Shown here piece by piece: positions 582 to 40,225 of a stretch of DNA of 64,000 bases (positions are counted from its first letter, which is position 1; every line of letters starts with the position of its first letter). The stretch comes from Portulaca oleracea (lineage: Eukaryota > Streptophyta > Magnoliopsida > Caryophyllales > Portulacaceae), in the NCBI GenBank assembly GCA_029582165.1, contig CM055879.1, positions 34,452,330 through 34,516,329 of the forward strand. Direction: 5' to 3'. The position numbers were made by a program, and so were the translations under genes. The notes beneath the pieces were generated by a model. The model did no database searches, had not been told where the DNA came from, and saw nothing but the letters and a program-made list of their open reading frames with translations.

Positions 582-2070
582 TTTACCATCGCTATATTTC
601 CTACCAAATAATCTTGACCATTAATAATAGCAAAATAGCCACTAGAATTAAAATATGAGGTAGCCACCTATGAAGGCTACACTGCACCCAAATACTCAAC
701 CATATGTTTTTTTTTTCCCTCTTTTTTTTTCAAAGAAAGGGAGGAGGGGGAAAGGAGAATGGCCTCCCCATGTTAGCACCTTCACAAGTTAGGAACAAAA
801 GTTACACAAAACCTAAGGTCAACTTCGATCTGAAGTAACACTCTAGAATTTTCGGCAAATAGTTCATCTCCACTAGGTGTTTTGTCAAGGGATTAAAACC
901 TGCCAGAATCGAAACAGACATTTTAGCTTTAGTTGTGGCTCAAGCTGTATCCAAGAAGTCTGGATAGTCTGATTAGAAAATGTGAAAGGATTATGATAAG
1001 GCTAAGAAAGAGATATATAATCATAGTGAATCTAAAACAACTAGAATTGATGGAGGACATGGTATTAAATGAGACAATTTGAAGATCAGAGATTAAAGCA
1101 GTAGAGTAAGGGTTATAGGTGTCTAGTAGGCCCGGGCTCGACTCGATTAGAAAAAGCTCAGTTTAAAGCTCGCTGACCTTTCAATATCAAGGACCACGCT
1201 CGATTTATATACCTAGGCTCGGACTCTACTTAAAGTTTAGATCGACTCAAATTTTTTATTCTTCAAAATTTAGAACTCTCTAACTTCATAGGAGAAGTTA
1301 AGTAAATTTCTAGGGGTTTATTAAAATGAACTAGAAAATAACAGTTTTTTTACAATAAGGGTACAATCAAGCAGAACTTAAACATTAGCGCTTGAGTTGT
1401 ACGGAGCCTAACTAGAAAATTAAAGAAAATTATTAAATTCATGGACTAATATTAAATTTTAAACATCTAAACACTTCCTACCTAAAATACCTAAACGACC
1501 GAGCCTAAGCCCTTGCCTACTCGATAAACATCTGAGTCGAGCTCAAGCCAAGCTTTGATTGAGGTGAAGCCAAGCGACTTGCGAGCTGGCTTGGTTCACT
1601 TACAATTCTAATCATTGGAAAGATCTAAGTCTTGGCTTAGTGCCTTGTGCCCTCTGTGGCCTTCTTTTTGTGAAGCTAGCAAATCTATCCAAATTCTTGA
1701 AACAGCGCATGTACGGCCAAGATAAGGCTTCGTTCTTTTGAGGGGCTGTTTAGGCTCGAATGATTGGTGGCCAACTCAACCCTAAAATTAAGTAAGGGGT
1801 TGTGTATTTACTGCCTATAGAAATGAACATGAGCCTAATATTTACGGAAGTAAATTAATAAAATGTATAAATTAAAAAAAAATACGGCTATATTAATAAT
1901 TAAAATAAAAGATTATAAAAACACAAGATTTACGTGACGCCACCACGAAGCAATGATAACCAAAGAAATTACAGAGTGGATCCTTAATGATTTATTCGAT
2001 GGGAATAAAAGGCAAGGTATTAAGTAATACTATATGGGATGCATGGTCGATGATTGATGAATGATGATAT
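582..2070. other. AT-rich intergenic DNA, no gene seen
   Basis: No coding exon is recognisable. A segment near 1124-1610 is richer in GC and full of CTCGA/GAGCTCG-type words (for example GGCCCGGGCTCGACTCG), which looks like a degenerate MITE of the GC-word type seen again near 17-20 kb. No clean inverted ends or target duplication were found for it. Confidence 0.4.
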
Positions 2071-2656
2071 GAGTAAATTAAATTTACCTACCGGATATTT
2101 GTGGTAATAATTTTTACACACTCGACATTTGTGAAATAATTTTCAGCTTACTTGATATTAAATGTTCATAAATTTAAACATCATAAGATATTTTATAATT
2201 GATTTTTGTTGGATTTTCCGGCGTAACATTAAAAAGATAAACATAAATTGACTTTTTTACCCTTGATATTGATTCATATGACTTTCAATTAAATATGAAT
2301 TGACGTTTTTACCCATAGTATTAATTCATATGGCATTTAACATGGGAGTGTTGAAGAAAATGAGTGTGAGAGGAGTCAACTATTGTTGTTTTCTATTTTG
2401 AGTTTCGACACACCTTTTTACATACAAAACAATGAAAGAGTCATTTAAGTCATTTTCTTCTCAATATTATGGGCATCATGGTACATTCACATAGTCATAT
2501 AGGGGCATGATTGTATTTTCTCATTTCCGATGAGAAGTGACCGAATTTTGTCATTAAAAATCACTTTCATGTCAGGTAAAGTGAAAATCATTTCACAAAT
2601 ATCGAATATGCAAAAATTATAACTCAAATATCAGATAGGATAAATGTAATTTACGC
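2071..2656. mobile_element. MULE-type MITE with ~90-bp inverted repeats and 10-bp target duplication
   Basis: The ends are long imperfect inverted repeats. The left end starts GAGTAAATTAAATTTACC and the right end, reverse complemented, starts GCGTAAATTACATTTATCC. Similarity continues for about 90 bp on both sides through GATATTTG and ATTTGTGAAAT motifs. The element is flanked by an exact 10-bp direct repeat ATGATGATAT (2061-2070 and 2657-2666). Long TIRs plus a 9-11-bp duplication are the signature of nonautonomous Mutator-like elements. No coding sequence is visible inside. Confidence 0.8.
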
Positions 2657-3260
2657 ATGATGATATCATTGAAGTGCAAAAGTCCACTACTTGAATAGAA
2701 GCCATGTATAAACCACAAGCTTATTTGGGCCACACTGTTAGCTTAGCTCATAAGGGCTGACCAAAATTTTGAGGAATCTTACGTATCAGGGCCCAATGAT
2801 AATGGGCCTATAAATGAAAGGACTAGTCATAGGCACTAAAGATTTATTCTTTGCCTGATAAATTACCACAATATTTTTCTATTTATTTCTATCTAATTTT
2901 ATTTTCTTTAACCTAATTCTACGTGACTCTTTTACTTTTTAGATAACTCATTATCTAATTTTATATATTTTTATATAAACTATTTAAACCTACCCACTCA
3001 ATTTCTACATACTAACTAAAAGAACAAGACCTAAAATTATTAAAATCATGTCACGTCATAAATCAAAATGAGATAATTATTTTGCACAGTTTAAATTAAT
3101 TAACTCAATCTACTCTAATTTAGAGTCGTATTAACTACCAAGTCATGGCCTAAGTCACCGTTAAATCAAAGCTAAATGAAGCCTATAGTCACCAACCCAA
3201 ATAGACCATCAAGCCCAAGAAACATCCTTAACCTAGTTAGATGGGTTAATGACTTCAAGA

Positions 3261-3516
3261 AGGGATGACCCATGAAGCAAATTGATCATAAAATTTCAAG
3301 CAAGACTATAAGGTTTCAATTTATGATAATATTCATTTAATTTTTTGTTTTATGTTTTTGTTTTGTATATTAAAGAAGAAGATGAATGGTTTCATACTTA
3401 GTGCATCCATGGTTATATATTTAAATAAAAGAAATTAAAATAGATATTTTTTACAAATTGAAATCTCATAATCTTTCTTGGGATTTTATGACCAATTTGC
3501 TTCATGAGTCATCCCT
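3261..3516. mobile_element. foldback MITE with ~60-bp inverted repeats
   Basis: The left arm AGGGATGACCCATGAAGCAA and the right arm, reverse complemented AGGGATGACTCATGAAGCAA, match over about 60 bp, continuing through ATTG.TCATAAAAT. The interior is AT-rich and noncoding. I do not see a convincing target site duplication, so the superfamily is not assigned. Confidence 0.65.
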
Positions 3517-3745
3517 TTAGTTAACATTGCTTATAAAGCTGAGCCAAATTAATTACTTCCTATGACTCATTTTCTTTGTTAAAATAATTAAATTTAAAAG
3601 TCAAATGCATTATGGGAATTAAGGTAAAAATGTTGTGGATTGCCAATAATACCCTCATAATTCATGTGTAGAAAAAAGAGGGAGTTTATTTTATTAGGTT
3701 AAATGCATTAATAGAAATGAAAAAGAGGGATCGGAGTAGTATTTA

Positions 3746-3991
3746 GGCCGTGTTCTTTTATGCGGTTGGCAAACTGCGGTGCCACAGCCCACCGCAATTT
3801 GCCACAACCCATCGCATTTTACCGCAAATCATTACTTTTCTCTCTCCTCACTTTTCTCCTCTACTTTTTATATTCTCTATCTTCTCCTACCCCACATACC
3901 AATAACCTACCACAATTCCACCACACCCCACCACAATTCCACCACACCTCACTACACCATTCCGTAAAATACCGCATAAAAGAACACGACC
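3746..3991. mobile_element. Tourist/Harbinger-like MITE, TGTTCTTTTATGCGG family, copy 1
   Basis: Terminal inverted repeats GGCCGTGTTCTTTTATGCGG and, from the right end, GGTCGTGTTCTTTTATGCGG are nearly perfect. They are flanked by TTA on both sides (3743-3745, 3992-3994). A 3-bp TTA/TAA duplication with GG-starting TIRs fits PIF/Harbinger-derived Tourist elements. The interior is rich in CCACA/CACC words, for example repeated ACAATTCCACCACACC. Related copies lie at 4106, about 49310, 52531 and 62282. Confidence 0.75.
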
Positions 3992-4105
3992 TTATTTAAG
4001 TAAAATAGGAATTATAATTATTGAAATTGGAAAATAACTAATATTTTGGGATAATGAAGTAAGTTATGGTGGCAAAAAAAATGGGACAGAGGTGGTATAT
4101 ATTTA

Positions 4106-4335
4106 GGTCATGTTCTTTTATGCGGGGCATAGAGTGCGGTGATAGCGTGGTGAAATCATTGAAAAATGTGGTAAGAGTTGTGATAAGTGGGATATGTGAG
4201 AAAAGAGAATGTGAAAAGTAAAAGAAAAAAGTGAGGAGATATATTGGTAATAATTGTGGTAAAGTGTGGTGAAATATAGAAAAATATTGAATAGTATAAT
4301 AAATTGTGATAACGCAACAAGGCTTATATGTTATA
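4106..4335. mobile_element. Tourist-like MITE, TGTTCTTTTATGCGG family, copy 2 (right end lost)
   Basis: The left end GGTCATGTTCTTTTATGCGG after TTA matches copy 1. The interior carries the same GTGGTG/GTGGTAA words in the opposite orientation. No matching right terminus is visible, so the right boundary is approximate and the copy is probably truncated. Confidence 0.5.
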
Positions 4336-25101: not shown

Positions 25102-25953
25102 AACCGAAACGCTCAATGGGTCTATTGGAATTTGTCTCTCTCGAGTGTGTGGTCGAATCTGAGTCTGGTATGCTAGTACCCTTGTAGTTAGAAAATGCTC
25201 TTGTGATTGTCACTGGACTAATCAAAAGTTTTTTAGCCTCTACTACTAAGGTTGGTGAATTTGTTTAAGGAATGTTGAATAGGTATCTCAAGTGAAATGC
25301 TTGTCCCTCCCTTGAATTTGCAAGCAATCACTATCCGTTGAATTTTCAATTTGAGTTTGTTTGCGTTTTTGCTTTTGGGTATACCCAAATGCATTGGCTA
25401 TTTGGGTATGGTCGATGATTGGGTTTTGTAATGATTTGTCATGGTCTCACTCTCATAGGCTCGCTACAAAAATGCACTGAAATGTCATTTGTAAGTGTTC
25501 GGTTCAGTTAGTTGCGGACTTGCGGTTAATCAAAGGAATCAGCAAGACAAATATAAAGAGAAGATTACAACATAGTCAAGCTACAAGTGAGGAGAAAACA
25601 GATCTTCCTCCTCACTCACTAGTCACTAGCCAGACTTTAGCCAACACTGTTAATAGCACCACATTCACAATACAACAAAGATTCAAACTATGATGGAGAA
25701 TATGAGCCCTAAAAATGTTGTCTTCCTCATGGGCACTTGCTGAATTTACTTCCTCATCAATATGTGATGGAGAATATGAGCCCACACTTCATATTTTTAC
25801 CACTTCATCCTCAAGTCCATCTGTTTCCTGCGAATCAACCATGTTCATGCTGGGTACCTCAATCCCCATACTTTTATTCGTCTCCGGTACTGACAGATTC
25901 TTAGAGTTAGGAGAAGAAACCCTTGAGTGAGGATGTCAACGAACTCTAGTGTA
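25102..25953. other. SR45a-like 3' region and intergenic DNA
   Basis: Presumed 3' untranslated region followed by noncoding sequence. No further exon is recognised. Confidence 0.4.
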
Positions 25954-26237
25954 CTCCCTCCTTCCCATATTATCTGTCACTTTAACTAACTTTCTTTTTT
26001 TCCATAATATCTGTCACTTTATATTTCCAATAGCACATTAATTACTAATTTATCAAATCAACCTTATTAATTACATCTTTTTCATTCATTTTTCTTTTTT
26101 ATTCACATTTTTCCTTTTTTATTTACCATTTTATTCAACATTTCCACATTTTCAATGCACTAAATTAATGTAAATGGGAAGTTTTTTTGGTCTTTTAAAT
26201 TATGTCCCAAGTGACACTTAAATTGGGAAGGAGGGAG
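25954..26237. mobile_element. Stowaway MITE
   Basis: Starts CTCCCTCCTTCCCATATTA, ends GGGAAGGAGGGAG, flanked by TA at both ends (25952-25953, 26238-26239). The interior has an inner inverted CTGTCACTTTA/AAGTGACA pair. Confidence 0.85.
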
Positions 26238-26538
26238 TAGCCTACATGAAAATGTTACACTCTTATCCTGCACAATCTGAATATATAATTTTCTTGGAAC
26301 TTTTAAGCTGCACACCCAGTTTTTGCATACACGGACAAGTAACCATGTACGGTTTTTAAGTGGAAGGAAATGCTTCATGAGATCGAAGTAATCTATTAAC
26401 AATGTAATAATGAAAGCAAATGTACGTTAAATGTAAGGTAAAAGTTGTAAAATGTAATGTAAAAGTGAGGATTAAAATGAATAAGGTAAACACAAATGTC
26501 AAAGAAAACCAATCGAATCTAATTTTCCCCCTTGCATC

Positions 26539-26680
26539 GGGCACGTAGATGCTGATCCCGGGAGCATGATGCTCCATGCGCCCGGCCCACATTATCTTCA
26601 GCGTGGCCCAATGAAAAGAAAAGATCTGAAAGACGGCGGCCCAATGAAAAGAAATGAAGGGCGCGGCCCAATTGAAAGTA
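26539..26680 (+). repeat. left terminal inverted repeat and GGCCCA repeats of the MULE
   Basis: Begins GGGCACGTAGATGCTGATCC and holds four GGCCCA motifs (26584, 26605, 26638, 26665). Three of them head a roughly 30-bp tandem unit, GGCCCAATGAAAAGAAA. GGCCCA is the reverse of TGGGCC, the plant 'site II' element bound by TCP factors in genes of dividing cells, so the terminus may double as the transposase promoter (inference). The transposase ATG lies about 330 bp inside. Confidence 0.75.
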
Positions 26681-26870
26681 AAAGAAAAACAAACGAAAAA
26701 CAAAAGCAAACGAAAACGAAAAACGAAAAACGAAATCGTTTTTCAGATTATTTGCTAGAAAAACGAAAATCAAAATCAAACAAACAAAAGCAAGAAATCA
26801 TTCAAACAAACGAAACTCCAATTCCCAGAAAAACGAAAATCAAACCCTAGAAAACAATTGCATTTAGATT

Positions 26871-29800
26871 ATGGATCAAGATCAAGCAAATTCAACGAAA
26901 AACGACATCAATCAAACAGGTAAACGTTAAACAATTTTCATTGTTGAAGGACGATTTCATATTATCAACAATTACACTTAATGTGTTCGATCCTTTAAAT
27001 CTGCAGAAACATCCACCCAACATTCGAGTGCAAAAACACTATACATAGATGAATGTGATGATGATTCACGAGAAGAAGGTAAATAGATATTGTCAACAAT
27101 GCTCATAACATACAACGCAAATGCTCATGACCTATCATTACATTGCTCATACTCTACATGGACAATGCTCATGACCTATGCTCATATCCTACATAGCAAA
27201 TGCTCATGACCTATCATTACAATGCTCATAGCATACAACGCAAATGCTCATGACCTATCATTACATTAAGTCAGTAAGACAATGCTCATAACATTAAGTC
27301 ATAATGCTCATGACTTATCATTACAATGCTCATGACTTATAATGACAATGCTCATAATGTATAAGTCAATTGCTCATGACCTATCAAATATAGTTTTGCT
27401 CATATACTAGAACTACTATGCTCATAACATATAAGTATTATGCTCATCATGTAGAAGTAGAATGCCCATATCAAATATAGTTAATCAGTAAGACAATGCT
27501 CATAACATTAAGTCATAATGCTCATGACCTATCATTACAATGCTCATAATGTACAGGGCAATTGCTCATGACCTATCAATACAATGCTCATGACTTATAA
27601 TGACAATGCTCATGACCTATCATTATATTGCTCATGACTTATAATGACAATGCTCATAATGTACAAGGAAATTGCTCATGACTTATAGTGACAATGCTCA
27701 TGACCTGATTTTGTACTCATGTTAATGCTCATGATCTGATTTTGTACTCATGTTAATGCTCATGACATATAAAATATAGTTTTGCTCATATAATAGAACT
27801 ATTATGCTCATGGTGTACAACTTTAATGCTCATAACATATAAGTATTATGCTCATCATCTAGAAATAGAATGTTTGTAATGTTAATTTATAACATCAATT
27901 TTGTATCAACAGATCATGAACCTGTGGATAAACAAACATCAATGGCCACAAAAGAGTTCCAAACATTGAAAGCTCAAGCACTTGCAGAAATTATGGTACC
28001 ATTGCCAGACAACCAAATAGTAAAGGAAGCTGAATGTTCTGAAATCCTAGGCAAGAAAGTTACATCAGAAAAGGAAGCATTTTCGTTATATAATGAGTAT
28101 GCATTCAGAATTGGATTTAGTGTTCGTAAAACCAAGACAAGATATAGGGAAAATTCAAGGGAACTTAGACGTAGAGAGTTTGCTTGCAATAAGGCTGGAT
28201 TGAAAGAAAACAAAGGGAAGGATGGGAAAATGTACACAAAGCTTGACACAAGAACAAATTGCAAGGCAATGGTGTATTTTGAGATAAAAGATGGGGTATG
28301 GACAGTGGCAAGGCACAGAACAGAGCATAATCATAGATTTTGCCAGTCAGATCAAAGGCATTTACTTAGATCACATCGAAAGATTGACCGACAACAGTTA
28401 CTGTACCTTAAGCAATTGATCAACTCAGGGGTCAAAATTGCTGATGCAATTAGAGTAATGAAGAAAGAAGCTGGAGGATCACCTTCTCTTGGATTCACTA
28501 AAAGAGATGCATATGATGAAATATTGAGACAAAAAAAGAAGCATTTGGATGGATGCGATGCAAATACCTTGATAAAGTTGTTCGAGAAAGAGGAAAAAAA
28601 AGAGTCTGATTTCTATTATGATTTTGAGTGTGATGAAGAGGGTTCGATAGAGAGGTTTTTTTGGAGAGATTCCCAAATGAAGAAAGATTACATGTTGTTT
28701 GGGGACCTTGTGGTTCATGACACAACTTATAGGACAAATAAGTACAACTTAATATGTGGCCCATTTGTTGGAATGAACCACCATGGTCAAAATGTTATGT
28801 TTGGATGTGGCTTCTTGTTAAATGAAAATACGGAGAGCTTTATATGGTTGTTTGATAAGTTCTTAGATTCAATGGGAGGAAAAATGCCAATTACCATAAT
28901 GACTGATCAAGCAAATGCAATGCGAAATGGTATAGCCAAGGTGTTCCCGACAGCTGCACATAGATTATGCATCTGGCACTTGATTGAAAATTCAAAGACA
29001 CATATCAAGCACTTAAGATGCATGGAAGGATTCCAAGAAAAGTTTGACAGATTACTCAAACTACCAGACACAATACAAGAATTTGAAGACTCATGGCAGA
29101 GGTATGCTCATATCCTACAACTACATTGCTTATAATTCTTGAACATTATTACTCATAGACACTTATCATTATTGCTCATTTCATAAAACCATAATGATCA
29201 TGAATCTAAACACCAATGCTAATGACCTAGAACGACAATGCTCATTATTTACAAAAAATAACAAATTCTCTAATTTAACTCATATGCTCATAAACTACAA
29301 ACACATATGCTCATGACCTACAACTACTATGCTCATAATGTATAAGACCAATGCTCATGACCTACAACTACTATGCTCATAATGTATAAGACCAATGCTC
29401 ATGACCTACAACTACTATGCTCATAATGTATAAGACCAATGTTCATGACCTACAACTACAATGCTCATAATGTATAAGACCAATGCTCATGACCTATTAT
29501 GACAATGCTCATGACATATAATGACATACAACTACTATGCTCAAAATTTATAAGACGAATGCTCATGACTTAGAACGACAATGCTCATTACATAAAATCA
29601 TAATGCTCATGAATCTTATGCTCATAATCTAAATCTACTATGCTGATAAAATCTTCAATTTTCCCATGTCAGTTTGATGGAAGAATATGACTGCAAAGAT
29701 GATGAGTGGTTAAAAAGGTTATATGGTCTTAGGGAAAAATGGTGTCCAGCTTACAACAAACAGTTCTTTTCAGGAGGTATATTGTCTTCGCAACGGAGTA

Positions 29801-31050
29801 AGTCAACAAATAGTTCACTCAGGAAGAGATTACATGCAACTACTACTTTAGTTGAATTTTTCCATATATTCAACGATGTAGTTCATGAATGGAGAAGTAA
29901 TGAAAACACACTTAACTTCAAAAGTGGGCAAGGGATTCCAGAAATGACATTGAATGATATACCTATGTTGATTCAAGCTGCAAACATATACACACCCAAC
30001 ATGTACACAGAATTTGAGAAAGAATACAAGCGTATCCATACGTACCATCATTCCCAAGTAGAATCTTGCGATGAATATGAGACTTACAACGTTTGGCATC
30101 GTGTGAAGCCTCAATATAAGTATTTGGTGAGTTTCAACAAGTTGTCACATGATATACAATGCACCTGCATGGGGTTTCAAGAAACAGGCATATTATGCTC
30201 ACATTCTTTGAGGGTTTATGACTTAAATTGTGTTGAAGTTATGCCAACAAAATATATGACACCAAGATGGACGAAAAGCATTAGGCCCCAAGAAGACCTA
30301 GAAAACACAACAAAAAAAGGGGTTTCAACACCACCAGCAGTGTGGAGGACGCAAATGAAGAGAAAATATAATTCAGTTATTTCAGCAAGTGCTGAAAATG
30401 AAGAAGCAAGGAAAATAATTGAAGACAATTTGACACAAGTCAAACAACAAATACAGAATGAAGGATTGGTTGTATCTGAATCAGAAGATGACCAGAACCA
30501 AGACGTTGAGGAGCACCATATAGACAATGAAACAGTTGTCTTAAATCCCAAAAAATCAAGGCAAAAGGGTGAGAGCAACATTAGAAGAAAGTCAACAACT
30601 GAAAAAATGGCAAACATAGCTAGAGGGAGAAAAAGAGCAGCAGAAACAAGGAAGGTAAATATGCTCATAAACTTGAACTTCATTGCTCATCACCATACAC
30701 ATATCAAACACATACTATGCTAATATGCCTCAAGAATGTTTATGCTTAGAACATATTGAAAATGTCTTCACAGGAAACTACAGCAAGAAGAAAACAACAA
30801 CAAAGAATAGAAAGACAAGAACAAGAGCAACAAACTCAACATCAAACATTTACCACAGTGGAAAGTGCTATGTCACAGGTACCAAAACCAACCAAATACA
30901 TATTTGAAATTAAAAAATTTGAATATATAGTAACTCTATTTTATATTGACAATGCAGAGTCCCAATTTTGTTTCATTCACCCAACTGCTCCAACAAAGCA
31001 TGGCAGGCGTATCTTCACAAGATGTTCATCCACATCCCCATCAATATTAG
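26871..31050 (+). CDS. MULE transposase with FAR1 DNA-binding, MULE and SWIM domains (6 exons)
   Basis: Expected to bind the element ends and catalyse cut-and-paste transposition in the nucleus. Exons 26871-26919, 27007-27078, 27913-29101, 29673-30654, 30774-30878 and 30958-31050 join in frame with GT-AG borders to give 829 aa. An acidic N-terminus precedes a FAR1-type domain (AFSLYNEYAFRIGFSVRK, then NCKAMVYF and HNH). The MULE transposase core follows, with FGDLVVHDTTYRTNKY, MTDQANAM and AAHRLCIWHL carrying the expected acidic residues. A SWIM zinc finger, CTCMGFQETGILCSH (CxC...CxH), lies after the core, and the C-terminus is Lys/Arg/Gln-rich. Domestic FHY3/FAR1 light-signalling factors share this layout, but the position inside a TSD-flanked element marks this one as the transposon's own enzyme. 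Introns 2 and 3 consist of the 22-bp repeat. Confidence 0.88.
27079..27870 (+). repeat. 22-bp ATGCTCAT array in transposase intron 2
   Basis: Tandem, slightly variable units of about 22 bp starting ATGCTCAT, such as ATGCTCATGACCTATCATTA or ATGCTCATAACATACAACG, fill this intron almost edge to edge. All copies read in the plus orientation. Confidence 0.9.
29102..29665 (+). repeat. 22-bp ATGCTCAT array in transposase intron 3
   Basis: Same unit as in intron 2. The middle section is more regular, alternating ATGCTCATGACCTACAACTA and ATGCTCATAATGTATAAGAC units (44-bp dimers). The array begins at the splice donor itself (GTATGCTCATATCC). Confidence 0.9.
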
Positions 31051-31129
31051 CAACATTGACAATTAGTATTATAATCATATATGTACACACAAGTGCTTCA
31101 GTAAAGCTGAATTAGAAGTGTCATGAATT

Positions 31130-31995
31130 ATAAAGACAATGCTCATTACATATAATGACAAATGCTAATGACTTATAATGCTCATGACTTATAATGACAA
31201 TGCTCATTACACAAAACCATAATGCTCATATGATACAATACCAATGCTCATGATCTATCATTACAATGCTCATAACATACAATTACAATGCTCATGACCT
31301 ACAAGACTAATGCTCATGACTTATAATGATAATGCTCATTACACAAAACCAAAATGCTCATTACTTATAATGAAAATGCTCATGACCTATCATTATATTG
31401 CTCATAACCTACAAAGTTTAATGCTCATAACTTATAATGACAATGCTCATGACCTACAAAACTAATGCTCATGACTTATAATGATAATGCTCATTACTCA
31501 AAAACATAAATGCTCATGATCCAAAACACCTATGCTCATATCCTACATGGCCAATGCTCATGATCTATCATTACAATGCTCATACTCTACATGGACAATG
31601 CTCATGACTTGCAATTACAATGCTCATGACCTACAAGACTAATGCTCATGACTTATAATGATAATGCTCATTACACAAAACCAAAAATGCTCATGACTTA
31701 TAATGACAATGCTCATAACCTACAAAGTTTAATGCTCATGACTTATAATGAGAATGCTCATGACCTACAAAACTAATGCTCATGACTTATAATGATAATG
31801 CTCATTACTCAAAACCATAAATGCTCATGATCCAAAACACCCATGCTCATATCCTACATGGCCAATGCTCATGATCTATCATTACAATGCTCATAACATA
31901 CAACGCAAATGCTCATGACCTATCATGACAATGCTCATTACACAAAACCATATTGCTCATGTTGTAGAACTACAATGCTCATAGCATATAACTGT
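31130..31995 (+). repeat. 22-bp ATGCTCAT array between the two MULE genes
   Basis: Begins about 80 bp after the transposase stop. Units carry variants such as ATGCTCATGACTTATAATGA and ATGCTCATTACACAAAACC. A block of about 290 bp appears twice (compare 31230-31600 with 31560-31920), showing segmental duplication of the array. Confidence 0.88.
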
Positions 31996-32398
31996 TATAC
32001 CCATAATGCATACATCAAGCCTTTTCATAATGAATATACTTTTATGATAATAGAAATTAATAATTGCATCAACCACAACATTTGCCAAGATTGAGTACAA
32101 TCGAATCTGACCAAATATATTTAAACTAATTGACAAATGTGCAAATACATTTAACAAAGGAAATACAAATTCTCATCAGCACATGTTCCCAGATGCTCCT
32201 AGATAAAACAAGATAAAGTACATATTCCCAAAGTACACTCCTCATCAGCACTCGTTTTTCTACAGATACAACTAATCTAATTCAGCACAATCATCTACAA
32301 CAGACAAGTTTCTGAATTATATACAACTCCAAAACCATGACATTTTCACCCTATTCTTCAATAGGAGAACTTGTAAAATTGTTGCGCAATAGGTTTTT
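31996..32398. other. MULE internal spacer after the Ulp1-like gene
   Basis: AT-rich noncoding sequence between the array and the 3' end of the minus-strand gene. It presumably holds the 3' untranslated region of the Ulp1-like gene. Confidence 0.4.
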
Positions 32399-35300
32399 TT
32401 AAATGCACAAACATAAGTCTGCATATGTCACTCGGAGCATATTAATTTGTTTTTGCTGCAATTAAAAACAAGAAAAAAAATGTAAGAATTCCATACTTGT
32501 CATTAAAAACAAATAAAAAAATATTGGTTGCTTTGTGAGAGAGCAAGAGATACATACATTATCTTTCTCCAAGCCGCATGGCCAATCATTTACATCCCCA
32601 AAAAAGGTTTCCATATGCCTCATAAGAAAAACACCACAATCGGTGCTATTATCCTTTGTAAACCACGGCATGTTGGCATAACTAAGTTTGAAATCTTCGA
32701 TATTGGGGCATGAGTCTGAGCCATCATACACCTTAGTTTTCATGAAATAACCAAGTGCAGTAGCCTACATTAAAAAAAATGAACATGAAAAAAGTTAAAA
32801 AAAATTATAATGCTTAAGTATATACTTTTATGCTCATAACGTAAAAGTTAAAAATGAACATGAAATAACCTAAAACTTTAATGCTCATGACATACAACTT
32901 TAATGTTCATAACGTAAAAGATCAATGCTCATAACCTACAGAGGCTAATGCTCATGACTTATAATGACAATGCTCATAACACAAAACCATGATGCTCATG
33001 AATCAAAACACCCATGCTCATAACCTACAAGATCAATGCTCATAATCTACAAAGGCTAATATATGCTCATGACTTATAATGACAATGCTCATATCTTTTC
33101 GCAAAAAACAAGCATGAAAAAGTTTAAAAAAGAATATTAACACACGTTGAGGCAAAGTTCCATATCTTTTCTTTTGAGGCACATCGACAATCAAATTGTC
33201 GATGATTAAATTTTCTTGCTTTTGGATGTTTGAGCAGAACAAAAAGTAGTGCTCATGGGCACAAATTGGAATAAAAATCTGAAATAAATAACATAAAAAA
33301 ATATAATTAGTTTCAAAAATTAAATAATTGATCATAATCAATACATAATTGACAAAACTTACCAAATCAACCTTTTTAAGATCAATATGATCTTGCTCTG
33401 CCAATTCATTCGATGCAACTTCAACAAAAAAATTCTATTGATTTTTGTTTAGAGCCTTTTCCATGAGCAAGAACCAGGCTTTGCTGTAAATAAATGGCAA
33501 CAGAAATCACAAAATCAAAAATTCTAAAAAATAATCTAAGATTATAACTTAAAAATAATATGCCCAAATGCTCATAAATTACTCACCACACAATTTGAGG
33601 TGAAGAAAAACCGAGATACAGAAGAGACATTTCTGTATAGCTCCAAATTATTTAAAAATCTGCTCCACTCATTAACTACCTCATCATAAACATATGATTC
33701 CTTATACACAAGAGATTTCAAATTTTTTCGAGTGAGCTCCCCCCACTTTGACTTTGCAAGAATCTCACTGTAAAATATAATAAAATAATTTCGATTAACA
33801 AAATGAACTTTAAAAAAAATCTAAAAAGCCAAAAAAAAAACTTACTTGTTGTCAGCATCTTTTGCAAAAATGATTCTAACACATTGTCTTTCACGTGAAG
33901 TAAATTTTTTCTTCAATGCTGCAACTCGGTCAAGGTAGGGGGAACACATACTGGGAGGCATATGTGTTATTTTTCTGTTTGGTTTCTTCTTTATAGGTAG
34001 TTCAAGAGCTTCATCACTTTTTTTCTTCACCAAATCATCATTCTTAGCCTGGTTAGCATGCTCATCAGATTTGTTTTCTGCTGGCTCTTCTACTTGAGCG
34101 TCAATCATAATCTCATCGACAACATTACTAATAACTTGATTGACATGCTCATCAAGATCATCATTCGCAGGGTTTGATGGAGGAGGGGGGGTAGTAGGTG
34201 ATGGTTGTTGGTTATCGAACATAGGGTCATTCAGGAACCCACCCTCAATTGAATCCATCAATATTTCGAGGGCCTCTAGAATTTTTGGATTGTTCCAAAA
34301 ATCCTCATCTTGACTGAGGGTTCCCTCATGACCACCATCACTTGGAGCTTCAGTTTGCTCCTCCTCCTCCTTAACAAATTCTCGGAAAAAACTGAAGATC
34401 TTGCTGTCATGGCTAGCAAGTTTCTTGGCTGCACTCACATTAGGGGAAAATTCAAAGGCAGCTTTAGATGTTTCCCTAAATTGCTTGAATGACCTTGCAA
34501 GATCATTTACAACCTCTAAAAACTTTTTGATTAGCCTCTGCAACAAAAAAAAAAATCAATAATAGTCATGAATCAAAACACCTATGCTCATAACAATACA
34601 AAGGCCAATGCTCATGACCTACAACTACTATGCTCATAATGTATAAGACCAATGCTCATGACCTACAACTACTATGCTCATAATGTACAAGACAAATGCT
34701 CATGACCTACAACTACTATGCTCATGACATGTAATGACATACAACTACTATGCTCATAATTTATAAGACCAATGCTCATGACCTACAACTACTATGCTCA
34801 TAATGTATAAGACCAGTGCTCATGACCTACAACTACAATGCTGATAATGTATAAGACCAATGCTCATGACCTACAACTACTATGCTCATAATGTATAAGA
34901 CCAATGCTCATGACCTACAACTACTATGCTCATAACAATACAAAGGCCAATGCTCATGACCTACAACTACTATGCTCATAATGTATAAGACCAATGCTCA
35001 TGACAATACAAAGGTCAATGCTCATGACCTACAACTACTATGCTCATGACCTACAACTACTATGCTCATAATGTATAAGACCAATGCTCATGACCTATAA
35101 CTAAAATGCTCATAATGTACAAGACCAATGCTCATGACCTACAACTACTATGCTCATAATGTATAAGACCAATGCTCATGACGTATTATGACAATGCTCA
35201 TGACATATAATGACATACAACTACTATGCTCATAATTTAGAAGACCAATGCTCATGACCTACAACTACCATGCTCATAATGTATAAGACCAATGCTCATG

Positions 35301-37011
35301 ACCTATTATGACAATGCTCATGACATAATAAAATTTTACCTGACAGTTATCTACATTTTCTGATTTGTCCGAACTGACTTCAATGTGTTCTTTTTCAGAT
35401 TGTTGATTTGAAGCAGTTGGTTTCCTTGCATAAAATGCTTCAATTTCACCGTCAGGGAAAGGAGTGCGTGGATCTTGCACCAAATGTCTTGCACCAGCGC
35501 ATTCATTGAAGCAAACAAAGCAAGAGCCCATCCTTGGATTTATGATGCCCTTGCCAAAGCCGTAATTTCTTTCAAAATTGACCCTCTCATTGACAGAGTC
35601 ATTGTCCCATGCCCCAATGATTGGGAATGATCGATTGTGTTCGAGAAACATGAAGGACACTCTGTCGAGGTAGAAGGCCTATGATTTTAAAATGAAGAAA
35701 AAAAGAAACATTATTGGTCATAGACAAATTCAATATACATAACTTATGATGTGCAACATGTATGCTCATACTCTAAAAACAATGATTGAAAAACATAATC
35801 ACACAAAAATGTTCATACCCTAGAATGGCAATGCTCATTGCATAAAACCATAATGCTCATGAATCTAAAAACCTATGCTCATTACCTATAATGACAATGC
35901 TCATTCCATATAAACCATAATGCTCATGGATCTGAAAACCAATGCTCATTACCAATAATGACAATGTTCATTGCATAAAAAACATAATCCTCATGAATAT
36001 AAAAACCCATGTTCATTACCCTACAACAGCAATGCTCATTTCATAAAACCATAATGCATGAATCTAAAACTTTATGTTCATAATCTACAACATATATGCT
36101 CAAACAATTTTAAAAAAAAACAGTAAAAAGAAAATTACCAACAACAGCATAATCGGTCCATCAAAGTAAGAGTCATTCTTTGCTTGCCACTTTTCCACTG
36201 AATGGCAAAGACTCTTCAACGCAAACAAACACCAATTATATTGCTTCACTTCATCTAACTTAACAAACAACCTAAACGCCTTTTTGTTGATGTATCTATT
36301 CTGATTTCCCATAAGCATAGTACAGAACACATACATCAAAAAACCCCATTGGAACATTTCACCACCATCCTTAAACTCCAATATTTTCTCTGGCATGCTT
36401 GCAATCACACCTTTATCCCCATTGAAATAAGCTTGCATAAACCTATCTAATTCACTCTTATACACCCTTTCATTTTGTTTGCTTTGGGAGTCTAACATAC
36501 ACTCAAAAGTATCAGAATACTTTCCCATTGGTAAACCAAAAATCTGATACACATCGTATGTATCAAGGGTCAATCTTCGACCATTAGAAAGGGCTAAACT
36601 ACAAGACAAAAAATCGAAATTCTTACAAGCCCACTGTGCTAAAGGTTTAGGCACTTGATTCATTTTTACTTCTAAAAAACCACCAAAACCCAAACTCCGA
36701 ATTGCTTCCTTCTGAGCATCATTGAATTTTGGGATCATACTAAAAAGCTTAGCAGGAGACATGCGGTTGTTGAAAATAACGTCATCTTTCTTGTTTTGTT
36801 GATTGTTGTGCTCTTTTTCTGAATCTGCACAAAAAAATCAACACTATTAAACAAAAAAGGATCATGACATAAAAACCTCAAAATAAATTGACAAATAATA
36901 CATGTTTTTTTTACCTTCTTTGACCATATCTTTTTTTGGTTTTTTCTCAACTTTTTCCTGCTCTTTCATTGAAAACCTCCTTTTGTAAACAATCTGACTT
37001 CCGGATTGCAT
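32399..37011 (-). CDS. Ulp1/C48 SUMO-protease-like gene carried by the MULE (9 exons)
   Basis: Exons in transcription order: 37011-36915, 36824-36139, 35678-35340, 34537-33846, 33767-33587, 33434-33363 (or 33483-33363), 33278-33144, 32764-32558, 32455-32399. With the shorter sixth exon all parts join in frame to 821 aa. With the longer one the stretch KAWFLLMEKAL is included, but the frame shifts and a TAG appears. The N-terminal half (DFLSCSLALSNGRRLTLDTYD, LPMGKYSD) resembles the plant-mobile or DUF1985-like region of transposon Ulp1 proteins. An acidic, Pro/Asn-rich linker follows. The C-terminal protease part shows the catalytic His (PICAHEHYFLF), a following Asp (IIDN) and the catalytic Cys in NSTDCGVFLMRH. 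Normal Ulp1 proteins have Trp after the His; here it is Tyr. The role in the element is unknown. The stop at 32399 may be premature, because in-frame residues NNFTSSPIEE lie beyond it. Confidence 0.65.
32810..33105 (+). repeat. 22-bp ATGCTCAT array in Ulp1-like intron 7
   Basis: Units such as ATGCTCATGACTTATAATGA and ATGCTCATAACCTACAAGA, in the same plus orientation although the host gene is on the minus strand. Confidence 0.85.
34550..35332 (+). repeat. 22-bp ATGCTCAT array in Ulp1-like intron 3 (most regular array)
   Basis: The cleanest array: 44-bp dimers of ATGCTCATGACCTACAACTA(CT) and ATGCTCATAATGTATAAGAC(CA) repeat many times, interrupted by a few 20-bp variants (AACAATACAAAGGCCA). Confidence 0.92.
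35735..36110 (+). repeat. 22-bp ATGCTCAT array in Ulp1-like intron 2 (diverged)
   Basis: The same unit with more changes (ATGTTCAT, ATCCTCAT), e.g. ATGCTCATTGCATAAAACCA and ATGCTCATGAATCTAAAAAC. Confidence 0.85.
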
Positions 37012-37690
37012 TTTGTCTCTGCCATTAAACACATAAATGAAACCAGTTAATAAAACAAATCTCAATACATCATAGACTAACTCTATTAAAAACAGAGACT
37101 CACAAAAAACAAATAAAATTGAATAAACCTCACACAAAAACGCATAAAAACACAAAAATATACCACAAAATCTCACACAAAACGCATAAACCCTAAAAAT
37201 AAACATAGAGAACTCATATTAGAACAGAAAATCGTCAACAAAAACACATAAAACCCCAAACACAGAGAATGCATCACAAAAACAGAGAATGCATGAACTT
37301 GCTTGGCATAAAGAAAGAAGAGCACAAAATCTCTTACACAAAAACGCATAAAACCTTAAAAACACAAAAAAATATCACAAAAATCTCACACAAAAAGCAT
37401 AAAACCTAGAAATCATATTAGAGCAGAAAATCGTAAACTTACATTCGAAAAATTTTGAGCAGAATCGCCGCAGATGATTGACACACAAAGAGAATGAAAT
37501 GCAGCAGTTCAATCGATACAGAATCGCCGTAGAGAGTTGCAAGAAGTAGAGAGAGAGTTAAGCAGTCGTCGATGAGTGTGAGTGATTCGATGAGTGTGAG
37601 TGTGAGTGATTTGAAAGGAAGTCGACGAGACGAGTGAGCAAAAGAGGAGCAGTAGAGAGAGAGTTGCAAGCTGTAGCACGCGCGAGTAAA
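37012..37690 (-). promoter_or_regulatory. leader/promoter region of the MULE Ulp1-like gene
   Basis: Noncoding sequence between the right MULE end and the Ulp1-like ATG at 37011. It has A-rich, poorly conserved repeats of ACACAAAAACGCATAAAA type (37120-37400) and an AG/GTGTGAGTGAT-rich strip at 37540-37620, likely leader sequence. CACGCGC at 37677 equals the core site bound by FHY3/FAR1 proteins. Confidence 0.45.
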
Positions 37691-37699
37691 AGACGAGTG

Positions 37700-37817
37700 A
37701 GAAAAATGAATTGGGCCACGTCATTTCTTTTGTTTTCATTTGGGCCGCCAGCTTAGGAATTTAAATGGGCCCGGGCGCACAATGCTACCTGCACCCGGGC
37801 TCATAATCGTTTTTTTA
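37700..37817 (-). repeat. right terminal inverted repeat of the MULE
   Basis: Reverse complemented it opens TAAAAAAACGATTATGAGCC, then CGGGTGCAGG, GTGCGCCCGGGCCC and GGCGGCCCAAATGAAAAC, in the same order as the left end. It carries three TGGGCC motifs (37712, 37741, 37766). The outermost eight bases do not match the left terminus. Confidence 0.75.
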
Positions 37818-38231
37818 CCTTGCATCTGTCTAAGTTTTATGTGTTTGGGGATGTATTTGTCCTAGGTCATTCAGAACGATGATTTTTATTTTAAATTTTT
37901 ATCGTATCATTATTTTAATAACTTAAAAATTTAGCAATAAATTGATTATAAAATGGACTCAACATTCATAATAATAAATTTTAAATATAACACCCCATTT
38001 CATATGTTATAATAAATTTTGTATCTGGAGAATTTTATTTATCGAGCTAAGATCACTACATTGGATTAATATGCGATAAACTATTTTTTTATAGGGTCCA
38101 ACTAATATATACAACTAAGCAATATTTGGTAATGTATCATATTAGCATCTTTTAGCAGAAAGTCTAAAATGTATTTTCCCCCCTCCTATTTTAGTAAAAT
38201 TAATAAAATAAAAGATAAAAATTGTTAAGTA

Positions 38232-38449
38232 CTCCCTCCGTCCCAAATTAATTGACACTTTGACAAAATTTTGACCTTAAATTATTCATAAATCACAATC
38301 AGTTATAATATGAAATTACTGTCATTAGAAGGATACTTTACTAAACACTATGATTGAAGTAATTTCATTTTATAACTCATTATTATAATTTATGAATAAT
38401 TAACGATTAAAATTTAGTCAAAATGCCAATTAATTTGGAACGGAAGGAG
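38232..38449. mobile_element. Stowaway MITE
   Basis: TA-flanked, starts CTCCCTCCGTCCCAAATTAA and ends TTAATTTGGAACGGAAGGAG, a nearly full inverted match. A classic intact copy just right of the MULE. Confidence 0.9.
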
Positions 38450-40225
38450 TATTGTATATGTAGATGTAAATATCTAACAAAATAAATAAATAAATAGACA
38501 CAATGTATGAAATATGAATCACAATAAATATGTGCATATGTCTTAGGTGGGAGGGAACAGTGAGCATTAAATTTGGAGGGAATCTTTGTCTGACTGCAAA
38601 GCAAAAGACTACAGCATTCCACTGGGATTTCTGAGTTCTGCTCATCTTCAATTTTCCCAGATCCCCTTCTCTTCCTCCTCTGGTCTGCCTTTACTTTTAA
38701 CCTATCAAATTGCATTTTCCACCCTACTTCCTTACATATTATTTATTTATCTATTTATTCAATATGCACTTGTTTTTTCTGCCCTACTTCACTTCCCTAC
38801 ATGTTTATTACCTCTGAAAAATCTCACCCATTTGGGGTTAATTTGTTGCTTATGAGTCATGAACTAATGAAGTATTACTTCTTAAACAAAAAAGAAATAT
38901 GTGTAGTTAATTTTAAAACATTTGGCTGTTTCCCTGTTAAAATGGAGACTACACAATTACAAATTGTAGTGCAAAATAATTAAATAAGAAATAAAATAGG
39001 ATTAATACGAAGATTTAAGATGGAAAAGCCTAACACTGGGAAAAAAAAAACTTAGAATAATGCACTAGAAACTTTTAGAGATTTATGACCTATATATTAA
39101 AATGACTTTTCATAGAAATTAGAAGGAAATTCATCTTTATCTTTAATCATACACCTTCACCCTAATCAAGATTTACAACCTAGCTATAGGTGTTATAACG
39201 CCGCAAAACACTTTTTTCTTCACATTTTTTCACCATGGCTACTTATCCCGAGTTCTATGAGACTTTGATTCATTCAGGCACTAACTTTGTTAGCTTCCAC
39301 ATCTCAACATTGTCAACATAAGGATACATTAAAGTAATATTTACTAAAACTATAATGCAAGAAATTCATAAAAATATAATTCTATCAACTTTTTAAAACT
39401 ATTTTATGATACACTATGATTAAATTAAAACATTAAAAGTGTAAAAAAATCGGCCTTCTAACACACAAATTAAACATATATAGCAACAAATGGAGGGAAT
39501 ACTATTGATTTACCCAAGGCTCCTCTCATTTATTCTTGTCAACAACTTGAATTGAACCCCTACGTAATAAATGTATAATCGTCATGATATGATAAATAAA
39601 TGTATGGAGGTTTGATTTTGAAATTCCAATCCGTGTATTGTCAATTTATCAGCAAGAGATGTTGCTTCTTCTATGTCTATTCCATGTTTGCCCATACTAT
39701 TCCAACCCCCCAATTTGGACCTCCTTTTTACCTAAATCAATTCAATTCATTTGTCAACTTTGCAATATCCAAAAAGGCTGACACCAGAAACACCAATGAG
39801 TTGAGTCAATTAATGAGGATTCCTGGGCAAATTGATCAGATTTGGGTATAAGAAGAAAAGTTAAATCAAGAGAATACAAGGAGAAAGCAAGATCAAAATT
39901 TGCATGCATACAACCATAACATTCTAGGGGAACACGTTTTAACGTAGTTGAAGGGAATTCAAATGTAGGCAATCTTCTCTTCATGAAGTAGAGTTTATGG
40001 AGAGACTGATTTCTCGAGATCCACAAAAGCATTCGGAAAACCTCTTTGGAAAACCATAATTTGGACCAAAGAAACTCGGAAGAAAAACCATTAACAAAAA
40101 ACAATTTGGGAAACCAAAAAGCTTGCATGAGTACTGATATGAATATATACTTGTGTGCTCCGTACACATACGGAAGAGCTAGATATACTTATACGATCAA
40201 ATAAAAGGCACATGGAAGCCTAAAG
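38450..40225. other. intergenic DNA, no gene seen
   Basis: No recognisable exon, RNA gene or clear repeat. The open frames here show no family motif and no plant codon structure. Confidence 0.35.

Follow-up and report, generated by a model that had tools for sequence, protein, structure and literature searches.

Single-direction motif arrays and a predicted VANC-like protein in a FAR1-type Mutator-like element of Portulaca oleracea

A Mutator-like element with two facing genes

The 64,000-bp stretch of Portulaca oleracea DNA analyzed here (the window) contains a whole Mutator-like element (MULE) of 11,279 bp on the + strand (26539..37817). It is bounded by a 9-bp target-site duplication, CCTTGCATC, whose left copy (26530..26538) and right copy (37818..37826) match exactly. 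Its ends, the left (26539..26590, +, with a CCCGGG block) and the right (37766..37817, -), form a terminal inverted repeat that is imperfect and about 50 bp long, as judged by eye after reverse-complementing the right end. The duplication, the imperfect inverted repeat and the PF10551 domain of the transposase (8.5e-29) together identify the element as Mutator-like. A stretch of 148 bp from the right end has at least 41 matches, at 40 places, in the 1.13-Gb, 63-contig assembly; by-eye comparison placed 29 of the 40 less than 3 kb from a listed match to the second gene of the element, and 11 not.

Two genes face each other inside the element, and the splice models of both were built by hand on GT-AG sites. 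The transposase gene (26871..30879, +), whose 3' end is uncertain, has exons at 26871-26919, 27007-27078, 27913-29101, 29673-30654 and 30774-30879. In Pfam its product matches FAR1 (6e-19) as well as the MULE domain, with a weak SWIM match (0.0011) just under the cut-off, and its named relatives are from flowering plants. Searching the genome of the plant itself with the transposase returned at least 78 matches from the 59 candidates scored out of 2402.

The second gene, gene 2 (32399..37011, -), joins a VANC-like N-terminal domain to a Ulp1-like C-terminal domain. Its exons 1-5 lie at 37011-36915, 36824-36139, 35678-35340, 34537-33846 and 33767-33587, and exons 6-9 at 33483-33363, 33278-33146, 32764-32558 and 32455-32399. 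The frame is broken in the window copy, and exon 6 measures 121 nt there against 120 in all eight siblings that cover it. The Ulp1 C48 domain scores only 0.01 in the window gene, against 3.7e-7 in joined sibling exons (30.7 bits, cut-off 20.7). A fold model of the N-terminal domain (36139..36762, -), followed by structure comparison, gave the fold of DNA-bound VANC21 (PDB 9lnj). Fold comparison alone made this match; sequence searches of solved structures did not find VANC21. At the sequence level the same domain is weakly PMD-like (7.4e-6) and DUF1985-like (0.016), both under the curated cut-off, and DUF287 was not found at E up to 1 in exons 1-3, exon 4 or the C-terminal exons. The one protein that a search with gene 2 brought up is from quinoa; it is distant, at 24% identity, and shows no related domain in Pfam. 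In the genome of the plant itself, about 36 loci carry the gene-2 domain at 80% identity or more, by a by-eye count among the 150 matches listed.

A 22-bp repeat in one direction

The initial annotation described same-strand arrays of a 22-bp unit in the introns and spacer of this one MULE, and that description is borne out. The core ATGCTCAT has 130 exact matches in the 64-kb window, all on the + strand and all within 27099-36039, with none on the - strand and none outside the element. Chance origin is rejected, as 100 shuffles averaged 3.09 matches and never exceeded 7, and as core pairs spaced by 22 bp number 11,685 genome-wide against about 0.9 expected from base composition (the reversed pattern occurs once). 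Tandem Repeats Finder recovered the same arrays. A weight matrix for the 22-bp unit, built from 83 units of the window element, detected 141 units on the + strand and one on the - strand, close to the roughly 150 units estimated earlier. Every + unit falls in non-coding parts of the element, outside the exons; the absence of units from the far flanks holds by construction, because the cut-off equals the highest score reached within 24 kb of either end of the window. Successive units are exactly 22 bp apart in 104 of 140 intervals, and both genes have introns in which a 44-bp higher-order unit recurs.

Within the transposase gene, arrays on the + strand occupy intron 2 (27099..27855; 30 units, 25 exact cores) and intron 3 (29104..29625; 20 units, 16 exact cores, the first of them 2 bp into the intron), and a single core stands in intron 4 (30661..30668). 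The largest array fills the inter-gene spacer (31121..31982, +; 39 units, 36 exact cores). In gene 2, again on the + strand, there are arrays in intron 7 (32830..33092; 11 units, 10 exact cores), intron 3 (34584..35321; 30 units, 31 exact cores) and intron 2 (35762..36039; 10 units, 8 exact cores), and a single core in intron 5 (33568..33575). The reported avoidance of exons is not absolute: 128 of the 130 cores are non-coding, and two lie in gene-2 exon 4 (34058-34065 and 34145-34152, +), where the protein reads DEHANQ and DEHVNQ. All seven siblings in which exon 4 could be placed carry at least one of the two exonic cores; C25, where that exon is incomplete, is left out of this count. No weight-matrix units occur in the terminal regions of the window copy (26539-26870 and 37012-37817).

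A unit two bases past the donor site of transposase intron 3 gave rise to the idea that the arrays are intron-creating elements. We set this idea aside, as five of the seven short introns are without an exact core and the spacer holds the largest array.

Siblings, turnover and constraint

Ten near siblings were taken as 12-kb stretches; each is truncated where its stretch ends or has an internal deletion, so that none includes all exons in full. In these ten and the window copy, all 1305 cores in the introns and spacer (57,920 bp) and all 12 cores in the exons (42,743 bp) are forward; the C5a stretch has 2 reverse cores past its last placed exon. Across 30 transposase-centred loci, which represent 25 distinct elements including that of the window, 1500 of 1500 cores run in the direction of the transposase, a count in which strands were compared by eye and five elements, each in two overlapping loci, are partly double-counted. 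Because one direction is kept across two opposite genes and follows the transposase at every one of the 30 loci, the signal belongs to the element and not to either transcript, as had been proposed from the window alone.

Large exons are about 90-99% identical between copies (minimum 86.8%, in a 72-bp exon). From copy to copy, spacer length varies between 1535 and 5385 bp and intron 2 length between 659 and 1260 bp, and motif repeats are gained and lost fast between copies. One sibling, C4, has an internal deletion that joins transposase exon 4 to gene-2 exon 2 and keeps 44 cores, all within the genes, at positions 1123 to 4121 of its stretch.

The core is more constrained than the rest of the unit. 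Units for this comparison were chosen solely by an intact core in the neighbours at -22 and +22, which put no condition on the middle core; in the 650 units chosen, the match to the consensus is 92-100% in core columns and 35-94% in spacer columns. Between elements, mismatch is 2.6% in the core versus 11.4% in the spacer columns over 599 aligned pairs from five introns, pairs that are non-independent and in which misaligned units would inflate the spacer value. Even so, such sparing of the core would not be produced by mutation, slippage or conversion alone. Units also resemble their counterparts by position, with a mean of 6.10 differences of 14 in the same intron of other elements versus 6.91 in other introns of the same element.

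Gene 2 has a dN/dS well below 1, with pairwise means of 0.30 in exons 2 and 3 (21 pairs) and 0.51 in exon 4 (28 pairs); these exons make up the scope of the estimate, exon 5 having yielded no pairs. The corresponding mean for the transposase is 0.35 (55 pairs). The values are rough because decayed copies were included with their stops skipped: two of the ten siblings have one stop in gene-2 exons 2-4, and four of the ten have stops in transposase exons 3-4.

Related families with other motifs

Of three more distant relatives of the element, two carry comparable arrays built on other words. In L060, whose transposase is 47% identical to that of the window in the first large exon, TTGCACACTAA occurs 29 times forward and 0 times reverse with a period of 22; in L059, at 54% identity over the same exon, AGTGAACA occurs 26 times forward and once in reverse with a period of 22-23. 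Arrays of ATGCTCAT are absent from both (0 cores in L060, 1 reverse core in L059). The readable half of L061 (51% identity in that exon) has a weak 23-bp repeat and no clear motif. The finding of a period of about 22 bp in two other families, each with an unrelated word, favors the original suggestion that the units are candidate protein-binding sites. The sequence TTTGCACACTAATAYAT has 263 occurrences genome-wide and none for its reversed control. The 100 places listed for it include eight clusters of at least four matches, each running in a single direction. Of these eight, five lie within 4 kb of a gene-2 relative, among the matches listed, that runs on the opposite strand to the motif, the arrangement seen in the window; the relative on C6 is L064.

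The second genes of these families have diverged further than their transposases. The gene-2 domain is 35% identical in L064 (family 2, on C6; this domain was folded), which was assigned to family 2 because of the adjoining motif on C6, the second gene of L060 itself not having been read, and 31% identical in L065 (family 3, at the end of L059). These values of 31-35% compare with 47-54% in the first large transposase exon. Judged from their sequences, related families carry their own motif and their own diverged, predicted second protein.

The three words share the pattern TGYWCAY (TGCTCAT, TGCACAC and TGTTCAC, that of family 3 on the other strand). It occurs 155 times forward and 14 times in reverse in the window element, and the corresponding counts are 51/4 in L060, 10/46 in L059, 5/4 in L061 and 31/22 in the window flanks. 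These counts serve as a lead and not as a test, because the pattern was picked after the words were known. Of the Arabidopsis words, YAGTATTAY occurs in the element once forward and 0 times reverse, AGTTGTCC 0 times on either strand, and AGTTGTAC 0 times forward and twice in reverse. With the VANC21 and VANC6 words nearly absent, the code of this element is neither of these Arabidopsis ones.

Comparison with known systems

In the published descriptions of Arabidopsis VANC-VANDAL systems, dense motif arrays of one orientation lie in non-coding DNA and turn over fast, and related families have different motifs, with a transposase that is conserved and a second protein that diverges (PMC5735166, PMC10398659). 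Relative to the account of VANC21 and VANDAL21 (Hiun; PMC5735166, PDB 9lnj), the present element is likewise a MULE with extra genes and the same second-protein fold; it has a dense short motif in a single orientation in introns and intergenic DNA with fast repeat turnover, different motifs in related families, and a transposase more conserved than the second protein. Unlike VANDAL21 as described there, its transposase carries a FAR1 domain, its motif is TGCTCAT and not YAGTATTAY, the terminal regions of the present copy are without the motif, and its second gene ends in a Ulp1-like domain, DUF287 not having been found (PMC5735166). The likeness to VANDAL21 is one of sequence and fold, and anti-silencing is here a prediction.

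Other groups share parts of this architecture. Kaonashi (KIU) and other Ulp1-carrying MULEs also have a second gene with a Ulp1 C48 domain (PMC13317346; grapevine, PMC2528002), but KIU elements are described as non-TIR Arabidopsis MULEs (PMC13317346), unlike the present element with its imperfect inverted repeat. Jittery and FAR1-type MULEs have the same N-terminal FAR1 domain and MULE core, SWIM being weak here; however, the Jittery sub-group of dicots and monocots is described with one reading frame and no such second gene (PMC6446971). A table in the same source lists FAR1 for Jittery and not for VANDAL (PMC6446971), and the FAR1 domain suggests that the carrier may lie outside the VANDAL clade. 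The locus is a variant of a known VANC-type arrangement and not one without precedent. Neither this repeat nor a FAR1-type MULE with such arrays was found in the titles and abstract starts of the open-licence PubMed Central papers listed. VANC systems have reportedly diversified in eudicots, and motif sequence, density and helical periodicity are said to matter (Sasaki 2022, EMBO J).

Interpretation of the arrays

We hypothesize that the arrays are cis binding sites for the gene-2 product, a relative of the Arabidopsis VANC anti-silencing proteins, and we consider this very probable. Protein-binding sites, perhaps for the Ulp1-like protein, were among the initial suggestions, and they are the best-fitting reading, predicted in part from the fold that the N-terminal domain shares with DNA-bound VANC21. 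The observations beneath it are one motif in one direction, a 22-bp register, non-coding placement and a constrained core, together with fast change in array length, a gene-2 dN/dS below 1, the VANC21 fold, and the motifs and diverged second genes of other families; binding, demethylation and mobilisation are the steps that it would add. Because this picture is so like that of VANC-VANDAL, we hold that gene 2 would make a VANC-like protein that lifts silencing.

Under this hypothesis, the gene-2 protein would bind TGCTCAT, and with sites two helical turns of B-DNA apart, successive proteins would line up on one side of the double helix. If introns and spacer were densely occupied, DNA methylation could then be removed or blocked across the element. 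Relief of methylation would allow expression of the transposase and the second gene, and only elements with the right word would be freed. The window copy, with its own second gene broken, would rely on intact siblings.

It is improbable that the arrays are instead sites for the FAR1 zinc finger of the transposase, serving synapsis or internal recruitment. The clear FAR1 DNA-binding domain and the agreement of motif and transposase direction in 25 of 25 elements would suit such a role, but the terminal 332 bp and 806 bp of the window copy, where a transposase must act, are without units, and the deleted sibling C4 has its 44 cores inside the genes. In addition, the clear match to a solved structure is to an anti-silencing DNA binder and comes from gene 2, the transposase not having been folded.

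We give equally little credence to a passive or selfish satellite that grows by slippage, unequal exchange and conversion in tolerant introns with no bound protein. Such processes would hit core and spacer alike, which is not what the mismatch values show, and the units group by intron position across elements. Quickly changing array lengths, a 44-bp higher-order unit in introns of both genes, and core pairs that are abundant genome-wide in other contexts are all as a satellite would have them; two other families with unrelated words, a similar period and again one direction are not. The proposal that a satellite hops between introns of its host element is less likely for the same reasons, its units being closer to those of the same intron elsewhere and its core constrained. 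Least probable is that the arrays are targets or decoys of RNA-directed DNA methylation, which is described as sharing overlapping non-coding VANDAL regions with VANC (PMC10398659) and would suit the near absence of CG and CHG sites from the window arrays (observed/expected 0.10 and 0.15) but not the L059 arrays, which are without the CHG depletion, or that they are intronic splicing signals, which a fixed element strand would present as opposite sequences in the transcripts of the two genes and which would not explain the largest array, in the spacer.

If the arrays are binding sites for the gene-2 product, the locus bears on a process, sequence-specific escape from DNA methylation, that has been shown for a few Arabidopsis VANDAL elements. 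It offers another plant in which to compare motif arrays, their likely cognate proteins and diverged codes in one genome, with the solved protein-DNA complex as a template. The questions of which residues set the word, and of why a near-two-turn spacing persists when the word changes, become testable.

Repeats beyond the element family

The initial annotation held that wide dispersal of the unit outside the family, or frequent opposite orientation, would count against it. Wide dispersal is partly what we found. Eleven elements have 24-122 core pairs each, so that 36 copies at the highest count would provide about 4,400 pairs at most, versus the 11,685 in the genome. Some of the 100 core-pair places listed have other spacers, absent from all eleven elements, and at a few of the 100 the opposite orientation occurs within about 500 bp. 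These other-spacer arrays may be older or non-autonomous members of the family, or other elements using the same address. A broader possibility, which we advance tentatively and regard as open to real doubt, is that FAR1-type (Jittery-like) MULEs run a VANC-like system of their own, that one genome holds at least three address codes fitting TGYWCAY at a two-turn period, and that the other-spacer arrays are non-autonomous or unrelated elements freed by the same protein. If other elements do use the shared core, they would be passengers exploiting the anti-silencing protein of another element.

The 17-base unit ATGCTCATGACCTACAA occurs 586 times in the genome, and its reversed control 0 times. 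In the 100 places listed, 14 matches at seven places have no family gene nearby among the gene matches listed. Two of these seven places (451 bases) are both one-direction arrays of the ATGCTCATGACCTACAA unit, one of them decayed.

Core pairs, a deleted sibling and right-end matches in the genome

The core word of the arrays, ATGCTCAT, recurs at the spacing ATGCTCAT-N14-ATGCTCAT 11,685 times in a pattern search of the whole genome, with examples on contig C1 at C1:9562432-9563413, C1:12495205-12496004, C1:12673840-12674819 and C1:7176303-7176832. Among 100 places listed for this pattern, the spacers differ in some arrays, and at a few places both orientations occur near each other.

In a sibling, or near copy, at C4:49195000-49206999 (L047, L048), an internal deletion fuses transposase exon 4 to gene-2 exon 2; this copy retains 44 cores, every one in the direction of the element. 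A genome search also matched the element's right end at ten places that have no nearby gene-2 match among the matches listed (C13:37746721, C16:39874753, C2:55523696, C13:40412629, C13:13742620, C4:54203001, C9:39335684, C10:29624780, C13:36157550 and C1:48032017), and these may be non-autonomous copies.

Gene 2 of the window copy

Exon 6 of gene 2 (33363-33483) in the window copy has one extra base compared with each of the eight siblings that cover this exon, and the Ulp1 frame is broken in this copy. Two cores lie within coding sequence at 34058-34152, where they are read as DEHANQ and DEHVNQ, and one or both are present in each of the seven siblings with a placed exon 4.

Comparison with distant relatives

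Symmetric methylation sites are almost absent from the window arrays (observed/expected 0.10 for CG and 0.15 for CHG). The arrays of family 2 (L060) are similarly poor in them (0.05 and 0.28), whereas those of family 3 (L059) are not (0.29 and 1.78). We give the depletion low weight, because one shared unit composition counts once. A pattern picked after the fact, TGYWCAY, matches the words of all three families (window arrays at 27099-36039, L060 and L059), in family 3 on the opposite strand.

In a third distant relative (L061, C5:43749900-43758899), whose transposase is 51% identical, no strong array was found in the readable half examined. This relative may represent a lineage without the proposed VANC-like anti-silencing system of gene-2 protein and motif arrays, or a domesticated copy.

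Short elements in the flanks

Both flanks of the window element hold short elements, at about 25950-26240 and 38230-38450, with ends CTCCCTCC...GGAGGGAG or GGAAGGAG. By eye, they look like MITEs.
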